This document shows positions 56,241 through 61,127 of a stretch of DNA of 64,000 nucleotides, piece after piece. Below the pieces are notes generated by a model, which saw only the letters and a list, made by a program, of their open reading frames with translations, searched no databases and was not told the DNA's origin. Positions within the stretch are counted from its first letter, which is position 1. The number at the start of each line of letters is the position of its first letter. This DNA is from Desulfosoma sp. (GTDB lineage: Bacteria > Desulfobacterota > Syntrophobacteria > Syntrophobacterales > DSM-9756). Made by a program: the position numbers and the translations under genes. The stretch spans positions 349,782 through 413,781 of the forward strand of contig JBBFKY010000001.1 in NCBI GenBank assembly GCA_037481875.1, written 5' to 3'.

Positions 56241-56921
56241 CTATTTCTCCTTTTCCTTCTTCAACTGCACGGTGACAAAATCCGGTACCCACTGATTTTC
56301 TTTGGCATTCCAAACATATTGGCGAACCACCAAGGCGTCCTTGTAAATGCGTTCCACCAGGCCGTCCGGGGTCACAGGTGTTCCCTCCCTGACGATGTAG
56401 CCTCGGCCTGCAGCGTCTTCGATAAGGGCACGAGATCCCATATCCCCCCAAAGGATAGCCTTGAGCCCTCTCTCGATTTCGCCTAGGCTCATCTTTTGCA
56501 AAGGTGTCAAAGGAAATCCGGCTGATGGAACAGGCGGGGGCTCCCTTTCGCTTTCGGGATAGGTCTCGGTGACCGTCACTCCGGGTTTGACAAAGGGGAC
56601 AAAGGGATCCAGCAGCCCCAAAGGGCGATAACGAAACTCATCGCTTAGAACAGCCTGATGCATTTGCCCTCGAAGGACAAGAGCCTGTTCGGGGCTGATC
56701 TCCATGTCTTCGAAAGCTTGTCCGGAAGATACCGCCGCAGGCTCTTTGGGTGTCGGCGCCGCAGAGGTGGAATCCGTCGGCGTTGCCATACCGAAGCCCA
56801 GCATCACAAAAAACAGCATGGCAGAAACCGCAAACACCGAATTTTTTCTCAAGCCCTTCCAAGCCCTGGAAGATTTACCCGCCTGCCCTCTCTTTGTGTG
56901 CGCGTGCCGTTTTCTGATCAT
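56241..56921 (-). CDS. pilP: PilP-like type IV pilus assembly protein
   Basis: A 226-residue protein. A basic N-terminus and a single hydrophobic segment (SVFAVSAMLFFVMLGFGMA, about residues 31-49) are followed by a flexible Pro/Ser-rich region. A C-terminal PilP beta domain comes last: LGLLDPFVPFV, PLTPLQKMSLGEIERGLKAIL, SRALIEDAAGRGYIVREGTPV and ERIYKDALVV. PilP links the inner-membrane PilMNO complex to the PilQ secretin. The lipobox Cys of classical PilP is not seen. The ATG at 56921 has AAGGGG upstream. The gene is isolated: pilM, pilN, pilO and pilQ are not adjacent. It is divergent from pilA. Confidence 0.8.
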   Translation of the reverse strand: MIRKRHAHTKRGQAGKSSRAWKGLRKNSVFAVSAMLFFVMLGFGMATPTDSTSAAPTPKEPAAVSSGQAFEDMEISPEQALVLRGQMHQAVLSDEFRYRPLGLLDPFVPFVKPGVTVTETYPESEREPPPVPSAGFPLTPLQKMSLGEIERGLKAILWGDMGSRALIEDAAGRGYIVREGTPVTPDGLVERIYKDALVVRQYVWNAKENQWVPDFVTVQLKKEKEK

Positions 56922-57107
56922 CTCAGCACCCCTTCCCCTCGCTCCACATGAGCCATGCCCTTTAAATGCAGGCAACCAAGGACCATTTTCCACTTCGAGA
57001 TCCTTTCCCATGGCCCTTTTTGGCACCAAATTCTTTACGATTCAACAAAAAGATCCTTCCATGAATCTAGAAATCTTATCGTCAATCCCCCTCGCTTCCT
57101 TGAATCC

Positions 57108-57229: not shown

Positions 57230-57245
57230 TGGCACAACCTTTGCT
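57230..57245 (+). promoter_or_regulatory. Sigma-54 promoter of pilA
   Basis: TGGCACAACCTTTGCT matches the RpoN consensus TGGCAC-N5-TTGCW, with exactly ten bases between the GG at -24 and the GC at -12. Transcription would start near 57256, giving a leader of about 150 bases before the pilA ATG. Confidence 0.92.
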
Positions 57246-57405: not shown

Positions 57406-57831
57406 ATGTTGATCAAGATGAGAGAAAACAAAGGCTTCACCTTGGTGGAACTCATGATTGTGGTGGCCATCATCGGCATCCTGGCCGCCGTGGCGGTGCC
57501 CTTTTATCAGCGCTATGTTCAAAAATCACGACTCACCTCTCTCGTTTTTCCCGCACTCCACTCCATCGAGACCAACATCGCAGCCTTTTACGCTGTAAGG
57601 AATAGTTTTCCGAATTCCATATCGGGCATGACGGCGGATGCCGACATGAGCTATATTGACAACGCAACCTTTGATGGTAACCAAGGGAAGCTTACCATTA
57701 TTATAAACGGTCGGACCGCTCTCAAACAGCTGGATGGTAAAACTCTTACGGCTACGGCTAAAACAAGCGGCGGTAAGATCACTACCTGGGAATTGGGTGG
57801 CACTCTAGCGGACGAGCTTGGTCTTAAATAA
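57406..57831 (+). CDS. pilA: Type IV major pilin PilA
   Basis: A 141-residue prepilin. The leader is 10 residues (MLIKMRENKG) and cleavage is expected before Phe of FTLVELMIVVAIIGILAAVA, with the conserved Glu5. This is followed by PFYQRYVQKSR and a short globular domain of ~100 residues. The mature protein is about 131 residues. The ATG at 57406 has AGGAGGA upstream; the frame to 57295 lies upstream of the ribosome site and is not used. No cysteine pair is present. The gene has its own sigma-54 promoter and terminator, as expected for a major pilin made in quantity. Confidence 0.95.
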   Translation: MLIKMRENKGFTLVELMIVVAIIGILAAVAVPFYQRYVQKSRLTSLVFPALHSIETNIAAFYAVRNSFPNSISGMTADADMSYIDNATFDGNQGKLTIIINGRTALKQLDGKTLTATAKTSGGKITTWELGGTLADELGLK

Positions 57832-57847
57832 TCATTCCACTTTATGT

Positions 57848-57872
57848 GGGGGGCATGGCCCCCCTTTTTTTT
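57848..57872 (+). terminator. Terminator of pilA
   Basis: GGGGGGC and GCCCCCC form a 7-bp all-GC stem with a three-base loop, followed by eight T. It lies 17 bp past the pilA stop codon, and downstream transcription of the next gene would need read-through or its own promoter. Confidence 0.92.
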
Positions 57873-57919: not shown

Positions 57920-60310
57920 GTGCCAATGCGAAAACCATACCTTCGCATGTTACCCCTATTCGTTGGGCTTACACTTCTCATCGTCAGTTATTCTAATACG
58001 TTTTATGGCCCATTTGTTTTGGACGACTTCCATAGTTTCGTGAAAAATGCCGATACTCATATTGAGCGGTTTGATAGTGAAAAATTCATCAATCTTGCCA
58101 AAACAAGGTTCGGTATCTATCGATTCGTGCCGATGTTAACCTTTAGTCTGGACTATTTATGGGGCAAAGGGGAAATATACGCCTATCACGTCACGAACCT
58201 GGCTATTCACATCATCGCCTATTTGTTATGCATTTCCTTTATCTACAGTCTTTTTTGCATTCCGAGTATTCGTGTCCAATCGCCTCAAAGTCGTCTCTTT
58301 GTAGCCTTGGCTGTAGGCTCTCTTTGGGCGCTTCATCCTGTGCAAACCAGTGCCGTGACCTACCTGGTGCAGCGCATGGCGTCGTTGCAGGGAATGTTTT
58401 TCCTCGGAGCGACCACCGCCTACGTTAAAGCACGTTTAGCCTTGCTGAACGGTGAAAGAAAAAGGTTCATCTCCTGGGGTGTCGTTCTTGGGCTGGCCGC
58501 TCTAGGGGCGTTTCTTTCCAAGGAAAATTCGGCCGTTCTTCCGCTGGTGATTCTTGTCATCGACACATGGTTCTTCGATGGGCGAATGGTCCGCCGTATC
58601 TTGCAGCCCCTGATCAATTGTTTTCAAAAGCGTTTGGGCAAAGTGGTTCTTTTGGCGTGTACTGTTGTCGTCATGCTTGGAACCTACTTTGTCATGGATC
58701 ATTTGTCAAAAGGGTATTCCGGCCGCCATTTTACGATGACGGAAAGGCTTCTCACCGAAAGTCGTGTGATTCTGCGATACGTAGGGGCGATATTGATACC
58801 TCGTCCCGGAAGTCTTTCTTTGGAGCATGATGTAGAACTGTCGACCTCGATTTTCTCACCCATAACCACACTGTTGTCAATGTGCGCCATTGGGGCGGCC
58901 CTCTTCTATGCTGTTGCCGCAAGGAAGAGACAACCCGTCATTACCTTTGGAATTCTATGGTTTTTTACCACCTTGAGTATTGAATCGTCGATTGTACCTT
59001 TGGAACTCATGTTCGACCACCGTATGTATCTTCCTTCCGTGGGCCTTGTGCTGGCCGGCTTTGTTGCTTTAAGGCAATCCCTTGGCAGGGTCGGGAAACA
59101 CTATTCCGAGAGCGAAAAGAAAAAATTAGCCTGGTCTTTGATGGCCGTGGTGTGCTCCTTTTTGTCCCTCATAACCTTTTTAAGGAACGAAGACTGGAGA
59201 GACCCCGTCACCATTCATGCCGACGCGGTACGGAAAGCGCCGCGAAATCCGAGAGCGCATGCGAATTATGCCGTGTCTTTGTATCTAGCCGGTTTCCATG
59301 AAGAAGCCCTGGTGGAAGCGGAGAAAGCGATCGATTTAGGACGTCAAAATTTCGAAGAAGATGTGGTTTCCGCTGTGACTGTTGTGGCCGTTTACATGGA
59401 GCGGAAGGATTGGCAGAAGGCAATTGCAGAGGGAGAAAAGCTCTTAGCGAAATCTCATGGAAGGGCCGATGCTGATTCCATGGTTGTTTTCTTACTAAGA
59501 TTGGCTGAATGCTATCGGCAAATTGAAGATTATTCCAAAGCATATATGTATGCTCAAAAGGCTATAGATGTTATTCGACAATATCCGTATCTTCGAGTCG
59601 AACGACAGCACCTTTACAGAGTGCTTGTAAATTTATTTGCAGACGCAGAAAAGAAGGGGGTGGTGCTGGACAATACGTTGGAGAATGATCTTTGTCTTGA
59701 CGAGAAAATCGCGCACGCACTGTTTGCCTTCGGTGATTGGGAAGGCGCGCGCTACTTCGCTCAGAAGGGGACAACAGACGGTGTTGATGCTCAACATCTT
59801 GTGAAAACGATTGATCTTCTTGAACAGCGCACGGCTGCCCAAAAAGCGCAGTGGGAGTTTGATGATGCTTCATTCCTTATAAAGGTCGCTTTTTTTATAA
59901 GTAAACACTTATCCCATGATGTTTTCATGAGCTTGGGCGAGCGAATCATCGAGCATAGACTCAAGAAAGATCCGTACGATGCCGCTGCCCATTTGCTTCA
60001 AGGCTGGTACGAATTCCACCGAGGGCGCTATGGAGAGGCTGTCAGTCAAGCGAAGCTGGCCATTGCGTTGGCGCCTCAATGGGCCAAGGCATGGATTGCC
60101 CTAGGATTCTTTGAGCAACAGGCAGGTGGGCTTGAACAGGCATTGACGGCTTTTCAGCACACCCTGGAGCTTTATCCGGGTTACCCCAAGCGGGAAGTGC
60201 TGAAGGTGCTGATGGCTCAGCTTGAGGCTTCTCAAATGGCTGGTCCCGAATCGGTGATCTCCATGCGGACGGAAACCGAAGAGGGGCAGGAAGGTTCTTT
60301 CACCTATTAG
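57920..60310 (+). CDS. Multi-membrane GT-C-like protein with C-terminal TPR repeats (TMTC-type), candidate pilin-modifying glycosyltransferase
   Basis: A 796-residue protein starting with GTG at 57920 (GGAGG 7 bases upstream). The first ~440 residues form about 10-12 membrane helices. A paired acid Asp35-Asp36 stands just after the first helix (VLDDFHSF), the place of the catalytic DD in GT-C enzymes. Other segments are HPVQTSAVTYLVQRMASLQ, FLSKENSAVLPLVI, LRYVGAILIPRPGSLSLEHD and the family mark FDHRMYLPSVGLVLAGF. From ~440 onward helical TPR units follow (PRAHANYAVSLYLAGFHEEA, AHLLQGWYEFHRGRYGEAV, KAWIALGFFEQQAGGLEQAL). TMTC proteins with this plan are O-mannosyltransferases. Position beside pilA suggests pilin glycosylation. 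Its AT-rich codon use differs from that of the neighbours. Confidence 0.8.
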   Translation: MPMRKPYLRMLPLFVGLTLLIVSYSNTFYGPFVLDDFHSFVKNADTHIERFDSEKFINLAKTRFGIYRFVPMLTFSLDYLWGKGEIYAYHVTNLAIHIIAYLLCISFIYSLFCIPSIRVQSPQSRLFVALAVGSLWALHPVQTSAVTYLVQRMASLQGMFFLGATTAYVKARLALLNGERKRFISWGVVLGLAALGAFLSKENSAVLPLVILVIDTWFFDGRMVRRILQPLINCFQKRLGKVVLLACTVVVMLGTYFVMDHLSKGYSGRHFTMTERLLTESRVILRYVGAILIPRPGSLSLEHDVELSTSIFSPITTLLSMCAIGAALFYAVAARKRQPVITFGILWFFTTLSIESSIVPLELMFDHRMYLPSVGLVLAGFVALRQSLGRVGKHYSESEKKKLAWSLMAVVCSFLSLITFLRNEDWRDPVTIHADAVRKAPRNPRAHANYAVSLYLAGFHEEALVEAEKAIDLGRQNFEEDVVSAVTVVAVYMERKDWQKAIAEGEKLLAKSHGRADADSMVVFLLRLAECYRQIEDYSKAYMYAQKAIDVIRQYPYLRVERQHLYRVLVNLFADAEKKGVVLDNTLENDLCLDEKIAHALFAFGDWEGARYFAQKGTTDGVDAQHLVKTIDLLEQRTAAQKAQWEFDDASFLIKVAFFISKHLSHDVFMSLGERIIEHRLKKDPYDAAAHLLQGWYEFHRGRYGEAVSQAKLAIALAPQWAKAWIALGFFEQQAGGLEQALTAFQHTLELYPGYPKREVLKVLMAQLEASQMAGPESVISMRTETEEGQEGSFTY

Positions 60311-60415: not shown

Positions 60416-60443
60416 CGCCGTCGACTCACGGCGTTTTCTTTTT
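60416..60443 (+). terminator. Terminator after the TPR membrane protein
   Basis: CGCCGT and ACGGCG form a 6-bp stem with a six-base loop, followed by TTTTCTTTTT. It lies 106 bp past the stop codon and before the minor-pilin operon. Confidence 0.7.
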
Positions 60444-60596: not shown

Positions 60597-61127
60597 GTGA
60601 TCAGGGCATCCCAGCGAAAAGAAAAAAGAGGAAAAGCTTCCGGCGTCAAAGTCTTGGCTCCCTTGGTGACGCAAAGAAAAAAGCGGACGGGCGGGTTTAC
60701 GCTGGTCGAACTTATGGTGACAGTAGCTATCTTGGCCATCCTAGCGGCTGTGGCCGTTCCCGCCTATGTCAACTACGTGAATCGGGCTCGGCAAAGTGAG
60801 GCTATTCTGGCTCTGATGAACGTCAAGATGGACCAAGAAATTTTCTGGGACGATCACAGCCGGTACGCCGGAACCATCGGCTGTCTTTCCTCGTTCGGAA
60901 ATACCTGTTCGGCGGGTACGTCGCGCGTGACCGCAAGCGGCTACAGGGTCAAAATCACGCAAGCAGGGGCGAGCACCTTTCGAGCCCAAGCGTACAAAAA
61001 GGTCTATCCCTACGCGTCTACCGATATCATCGAACTTTACGTGACGGCGAACACGTCGGATTCGGCTCCGAAGGTGCTTCACCCTGACGCCATTGCCTTT
61101 TCGATTTTCAAATGGATTTTCGATTGA
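60597..61127 (+). CDS. Type IV pilin-like protein (PilE/ComP-type)
   Basis: A 176-residue prepilin starting with GTG at 60597 (AAGGAG upstream). The leader is unusually long, 33 residues and strongly basic, ending ...RKKRTGG before FTLVELMVTVAILAILAAVA with Glu5. The mature domain has MNVKMDQEIFWDDHSRYAG and a Cys pair (GCLSSFGNTCSAG) likely to form a disulfide, plus SGYRVKITQAG. This pattern resembles PilE/ComP minor pilins used in DNA uptake or pilus priming rather than PilA at 57406, which lacks Cys. It is the first of at least six genes with tight spacing. Confidence 0.88.
   Translation: MIRASQRKEKRGKASGVKVLAPLVTQRKKRTGGFTLVELMVTVAILAILAAVAVPAYVNYVNRARQSEAILALMNVKMDQEIFWDDHSRYAGTIGCLSSFGNTCSAGTSRVTASGYRVKITQAGASTFRAQAYKKVYPYASTDIIELYVTANTSDSAPKVLHPDAIAFSIFKWIFD

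Follow-up and report, generated by a model that had tools for sequence, protein, structure and literature searches.

A TMTC-like GT-C protein with a TPR arm, encoded directly 3' of pilA, is a predicted pilin glycosyltransferase in Desulfobacterota

Introduction

Why does the gene of a large membrane protein with a TPR arm stand directly behind the gene of a major pilin? This arrangement is found in a 64,000-nucleotide stretch of Desulfosoma sp. DNA (hereafter, the window), where a first-pass annotation had read the membrane protein as a candidate pilin glycosyltransferase on the plan of the TMTC O-mannosyltransferases, seemingly acquired from elsewhere and distinct from the pilin glycosylation routes described so far. 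In animals, that plan is represented by TMTC1-4 (CAZy family GT105). TMTC-like TPR proteins also occur in many bacteria, although Pfam recognises only their TPRs, and full-length homologues were noted in uncharacterised prokaryotes including a deltaproteobacterium (PMC7801869). Here, we ask what the neighbourhood, the ancestry and the predicted structure of the window's protein say about its function.

Results

The gene (57920–60310, forward strand) encodes a GT-C/TPR protein of 796 aa, a predicted pilin glycosyltransferase that for brevity we call the enzyme; the call draws on the ORF, an alignment, a tree, a structural model and Foldseek. Its start codon is GTG, with GGAGG 7 nt upstream. On the 5' side lies pilA (57406–57831, forward strand), which encodes a type IVa major pilin of 141 aa from the ATG at 57406 (N_methyl 37.8 bits and Pilin 22.8 bits, both over cut-off). 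On the 3' side lies a pilin-like gene of the PilE/ComP type (60597–61127, forward strand, ComP_DUS 32.7 bits), the first of a minor-pilin-like operon; a pilin-like gene is also present 3' of the enzyme gene in many relatives. ORFs and Pfam agree on the position between pilA and the minor-pilin operon that the first-pass annotation had given. Upstream of pilA, the reverse strand (56241–57029) encodes a 262-aa protein with no Pfam match over cut-off and a C-terminus that looks PilP-like by eye, and homologues of this protein lie near the pilA-enzyme cassette in 17 loci.

Several short signals frame the pair. A sigma-54-like promoter motif, TGGCAC-N5-TTGC, lies about 175 bp 5' of the pilA start (57230–57244, forward strand); this pattern match may mark the promoter, and 4 of the 26 relatives whose sequence reaches far enough upstream show a similar motif. 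Between pilA and the enzyme gene, a hairpin resembling a Rho-independent terminator (57848–57872, forward strand; GGGGGGC-ATG-GCCCCCC followed by T8) is clear by inspection, with seven pairs, all of them G-C. Across 34 loci, the 90 nt immediately 3' of pilA folded better than dinucleotide shuffles in most cases (z < -2 in 30, median z -4.9), and a strict terminator test was passed after pilA in 19 of the 34 as against 0.3% of shuffles. The window's own z is only -0.7 because the runs of G and C in its intergenic sequence pair in shuffles too. A second terminator-like hairpin 3' of the enzyme gene (60416–60443, forward strand; CGCCG...CGGCG followed by TTTTCTTTTT) closes a two-gene unit. The order pilin, terminator, accessory gene is known in P. 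aeruginosa and others, where it has been proposed to hold the enzyme low (PMC11841053), and the hairpin at 57848–57872 may act as a comparable attenuator.

Is the link to pilA a local coincidence? The enzyme had a match in 54 of 60 relatives. Within the order Syntrophobacterales, a full-length orthologue lies directly 3' of a pilA wherever upstream sequence is present, with the single exception of Desulforhabdus sp. TSK (L075), in which a transposase-like ORF stands between the two genes. When 84,980 genomes were scanned, 77 loci were recovered; because the search patterns were drawn from the order's own alignment, distant members are under-sampled. The pilA-linked orthologues are contained in one 40-row clade of the IQ-TREE tree (support 100/99), whose proteins of about 800 aa come from Syntrophobacterales, Desulfobulbales, Desulfobacterales and other MAGs. 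In this clade, the enzyme gene directly follows a same-strand pilA in 34 of the 36 testable members, counting one (L086) that sits behind a tandem enzyme copy itself following pilA. Four further rows are at a contig edge or interrupted, and two members (L105 and L111) have no pilA in the flanking sequence examined. Among the 39 tree rows that do not belong to the clade, a pilin precedes the gene in just two, L142 and L067, and the pilin directly upstream of L067 is an unrelated one. Throughout the clade, pilins are the sole gene family consistently conserved beside the enzyme. The pilA-enzyme link is not local chance. Finding the gene apart from pilins in most relatives would have counted against the first-pass annotation; the clade shows the reverse, and a pilin-dedicated role is the part of that annotation with the strongest support.

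The association extends to the type of pilin. In an order-wide search for full-length PilA homologues (>90 bits), 24 genomes had both PilA and the enzyme, 11 had neither and 3 were mismatches, all at contig edges: G009 and G022 are truncated at the contig start, and in G037 fragments of the enzyme lie at the contig start. Thus, no genome of the order has a full-length PilA homologue without also having the enzyme or at least a fragment of it. Relatives that lack the pair carry other pilins; in several cases, an unlike membrane protein comes next, and those tested have TPR arms. Among themselves, the paired PilAs show homology from end to end and share a conserved C-terminus, GKITxW...GxLAxxLG. 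Their globular part consists of 22% Ser+Thr; among 33 aligned pilins, no Ser/Thr in this domain is fully conserved as an attachment site. The most conserved hydroxyl residues of PilA are Thr35 (29/33) and position 72 (Thr in 27 and Ser in 1 of 33), the latter being Met in the window's pilin, with Ser as the next residue after it.

How old is the enzyme gene at this place? Its GC content is 48.4%, compared with 53.5% for the 64-kb window, and its GC3 is the second-lowest among 52 long ORFs. These values bear out the AT-richness for which the first-pass annotation had read the gene as if acquired, and they would fit a recent acquisition. However, orthologues stand in the corresponding position throughout the order and also outside it, the window's copy falls inside its own family's clade, and 30 of 37 relatives likewise have an enzyme gene richer in AT than the DNA on either side, which makes the bias a family trait. 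Since the pair dates far back within the order and the bias recurs, recent acquisition is not the explanation; we regard it as very improbable, and this part of the earlier reading has to be dropped.

To what fold does the protein belong? The AF2 alignment comprised 32 sequences, the window's protein and 31 relatives of 27–46% identity. The full-length model (pLDDT 87.5, pTM 0.82) shows a membrane bundle joined to a TPR superhelix. Since TPR matches dominated the full-length fold search, we modelled the GT-C part by itself (pLDDT 88.7, pTM 0.88). This membrane domain (residues 1–432, codons 57920–59215, forward strand) is read here, from AF2, Foldseek and the K/R bias, as comprising 11 membrane helices as well as interfacial ones. 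Against the PDB, Foldseek gave STT3, Pmt4, Pmt1-Pmt2 and ArnT as high-probability matches that are weak by E-value (best 4.4e-3; TM by query length 0.31–0.50), the best being STT3 (8agc). A PDB sequence search found no significant match to the enzyme outside its TPR part. The K/R density of short loops was 0.244 on the predicted cytoplasmic side versus 0.085 on the predicted periplasmic side, and this bias, together with the odd number of helices, places both the loop of Asp35/Asp36 and the TPR arm in the predicted periplasm.

We compared the enzyme with TMTCs by the published scheme of motifs M1, M2, M4 and M7 of TMTC1-4 (PMC7801869). Three of the motifs are recognisable in the alignment of 32: (i) M1, Asp35-Asp36 in the first periplasmic loop (codons 58022–58027, forward strand), is invariant (32/32); (ii) M4 is represented by Ser200-Lys201-Glu202-Asn203 (58517–58528, forward strand), with Lys201 in 32/32 and Glu202 in 27/32, the remaining 5 having Gln, only the KE core being present as the next residue is N and not the T/Q of KE(T/Q)xxT; and (iii) M7, an ERxxY-like motif, corresponds to DHRMYLPSVG (residues 366–375; 59015–59044, forward strand), in which His367, Arg368, Tyr370, Ser373 and Gly375 are invariant (32/32) and which takes the form [ED]-H-R-x-Y, with a spacing slightly off that of ERxxY. 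Of M2 (SHKSYRP), only R68 and P71 are conserved in the matching loop (R68xxP71 in the alignment of 32). Pfam found no DUF1736 (PF08409) in the enzyme, and in the organism's own genome the best DUF1736 score, elsewhere in the genome, was 11.3 bits against a cut-off of 27. The GT-C plus TPR plan with TMTC-type motifs, from the membrane helices and Asp35/Asp36 to DHRMYLPSVG and the C-terminal TPR, was correctly seen by the first-pass annotation. Its match to the TMTC family is upheld for M1, M4, M7 and the outer TPR but not for strict membership: with no DUF1736 over cut-off in the protein or its genome, the enzyme is not a strict TMTC. From its catalytic-type motifs, it would, on paper, work like a TMTC or a PMT, with one mark of the TMTC family absent.

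The C-terminal TPR arm (residues 433–775; 59216–60244, forward strand) is defined by Pfam and by the AF2 superhelix. TPR_12, TPR_2, TPR_19 and TPR_14 scored over cut-off, and no family other than TPR was matched; the TPR part also gave weak PilW/Tgl matches. Mean pairwise identity is 26% in the arm versus 41% in the GT-C part. As modelled, the arm probably lies on the periplasmic side.

Which genes could supply a sugar donor? A GT2 gene is present within 5 kb at 20 of 35 clade loci, in some cases abutting the enzyme gene, versus 4 of 28 loci outside the clade (p 0.0006). For the GT2s tested, the best NCBIfam relatives were AglJ, PgfS and PpgS, of the lipid-phosphate-sugar type, all of them below curated cut-offs. 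Alongside the window's copy and its family there is no GT2 gene, and the organism's own genome holds only weak relatives of that GT2 family. A GtrA flippase was considered as a partner and rejected: the single copy in the genome lies beside a trpA-like gene, unlinked to pilA and with no adjoining GT2.

Discussion

We propose that pilA and the enzyme gene probably form a cassette for periplasmic GT-C O-glycosylation of PilA, with recognition by the TPR arm and an attenuating hairpin. The enzyme would sit in the inner membrane, with a cleft lined by Asp35/Asp36, Lys201/Glu202, His303, Arg368 and Tyr370 facing the periplasm. There, it would take a sugar from a polyprenyl-phosphate carrier, the presumed donor, and move it to Ser/Thr of PilA waiting in the inner membrane before assembly. 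Recognition of the paired pilin may fall to the periplasmic TPR arm, which changes faster than the rest of the protein, and the hairpin after pilA would stop most transcripts to yield much pilin and little enzyme.

How does such a cassette compare with known systems? TMTC1-4, metazoan O-mannosyltransferases of the GT-C/PMT clan, resemble the enzyme in having eleven helices in the GT-C domain, a DD pair in the outer loop that comes first, KE in a subsequent loop, a motif of the [ED]xRxxYxPSxG kind and TPRs that form a C-terminal block on the outer side. Unlike TMTC1-4, the enzyme lacks DUF1736, has SHKSYRP reduced to R68xxP71, has a type IV pilin gene as its partner and belongs to a bacterial inner membrane. 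Compared with PMT, STT3 and ArnT, to which its membrane domain gave fold matches, the enzyme carries TPR in place of MIR or soluble OST domains. Among pilin-modifying enzymes, TfpO/PilO and PglL O-glycosylate pilin at the periplasmic face, as proposed for the enzyme, and TfpO is encoded beside pilA, as is the enzyme here; Pfam found no Wzy_C/PglL-type domain in the enzyme at E up to 1. TfpW, which we compared by description, is likewise of the GT-C class. It is not known to have a TPR arm, and the arm of the enzyme is a clear structural difference between the two. In the group IV pilA-tfpW cassette of P. aeruginosa, D-arabinofuranose is placed on the pilin, and, as in the window, the glycosyltransferase gene stands beside pilA, a terminator follows pilA and the enzyme is tied to the pilin type (PMC11841053); here, the accessory gene is directly 3' of pilA, with a terminator between the two and a tie to one pilin type. 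By domain content, the claim that the enzyme departs from the described routes keeps its force with respect to TfpO and PglL. As TfpW is a known case of a glycosyltransferase that acts on pilin and has its gene next to pilA, the novelty lies in the TPR-bearing TMTC-like type, not in GT-C as such.

Two further systems combine TPRs with a filament. FlmG of Caulobacter is a TPR-GT flagellin O-glycosyltransferase whose TPR reads the filament subunit (PMC7591256). For the enzyme, we likewise propose that the TPR part reads the filament subunit for the glycosyltransferase to which it is joined; in contrast to the enzyme, FlmG is cytoplasmic, is not a membrane GT-C and serves a different filament. 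In cable bacteria (Ca. Electrothrix), at least one TPR gene and the genes of two sugar enzymes lie next to pilA, and the TPR proteins have been described only as putative protein-protein interaction proteins (PMC10580974). By its gene content, the cable-bacteria cluster is probably the same cassette; compare locus L086 (1966–10078), where pilA, two tandem enzyme copies, two GT2 genes and a membrane protein stand in a row.

Could the protein serve the pilus without being an enzyme? TfpY-like proteins, which have no glycosylating activity, are also encoded 3' of pilA (PMC11841053), other TPR proteins act in the assembly of pili, and the weak PilW/Tgl matches of the TPR part would suit a pilotin or chaperone; the protein would then be a non-catalytic accessory factor that aids assembly, its GT-C fold a relic. 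However, divergent members keep the catalytic-type residues of three TMTC motifs with little or no variation, GT2 donor-synthase-like genes co-occur, and conservation is higher in the membrane domain than in the TPR arm, so that we consider an accessory role improbable. Equally, the protein might be a GT-C enzyme that helps to make envelope polysaccharides or lipids, ArnT-like or linked to EPS, and that adjoins pilA but never acts on pilin. ArnT is among the fold matches, and both a paralogue in the organism's own genome (L064) and many relatives outside the clade are not beside pilins. Such an assignment is unlikely given that the pilA neighbour is kept only in the linked clade, in which no other neighbour family is conserved, and that the enzyme co-occurs with one PilA type.

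Alternatively, the enzyme could be an oligosaccharyltransferase that transfers a preassembled glycan to pilin en bloc, in the mode of TfpO, PglL or STT3, a variant that overlaps our preferred explanation. STT3 (8agc) as the best Foldseek match points this way, and TfpW is called both a glycosyltransferase and an oligosaccharyltransferase in the title of a preprint cited in PMC11841053. The motifs, on the other hand, follow the monosaccharide transferases TMTC, PMT and ArnT, and the linked GT2s resemble polyprenyl-monophosphate-sugar synthases; en bloc transfer thus has a modest chance of being right. More broadly, we see about an even chance that periplasmic glycosylation by this cassette amounts to a third route of pilin glycosylation in Desulfobacterota, in which a TMTC-like single-sugar transferase reads its own pilin with a TPR arm and is supplied by a polyprenyl-phosphate-sugar synthase.

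The literature we searched, with subscription journals mostly outside its coverage, holds no description of this enzyme with pilin. Its elements are separately known: pilA-adjoining glycosyltransferases, bacterial TMTC-like homologues, a TPR that reads a filament, and the pilA, TPR and sugar genes of cable bacteria. What we did not find in that literature is a clade of TMTC-like enzymes dedicated to pilin, with its cassette layout. The clade gives one TMTC-like protein a probable substrate, the neighbouring major pilin. Cultured strains, two Desulfacinum type strains among them, make the claim of pilin glycosylation testable, and in Syntrophobacter fumaroxidans MPOB the major pilin is given as Sfum_0126 (PMC10787695). 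If the proposal is true, bacteria would have a counterpart of the animal TMTC pathway with its natural substrate known, and the route would be widespread in Desulfobacterota, in cultured Syntrophobacteraceae and possibly in cable bacteria. Were these pili coated with sugar, this would matter for their phage resistance, for their adhesion and for the structural models made of them.

Related proteins also occur in other settings. The paralogue in the organism's own genome (L064:8369–10648, reverse strand; contig C1, about 66.4–68.6 kb) has TPR, DD and EHRxYxP and no adjoining pilin. In relatives without the cassette, other membrane proteins of different sequence are encoded directly 3' of other pilins or small pilin-like ORFs (L067:6764–8524, L147:5750–7582, L148:1147–2928, L149:4744–6522 and L151:2754–5003), with TPR arms confirmed in L067, L148 and L151; this suggests a repeated pairing of such membrane enzymes with pilins. 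Four loci (L058, L059, L060 and L062) have a short Geobacter-type pilA, a small ORF, an ABC-2 permease, an ABC ATPase and then, about 3 kb downstream of pilA, a TMTC-like TPR protein. At four non-clade loci (L118, L119, L136 and L144), pseudopilin-like genes lie alongside on the opposite strand.
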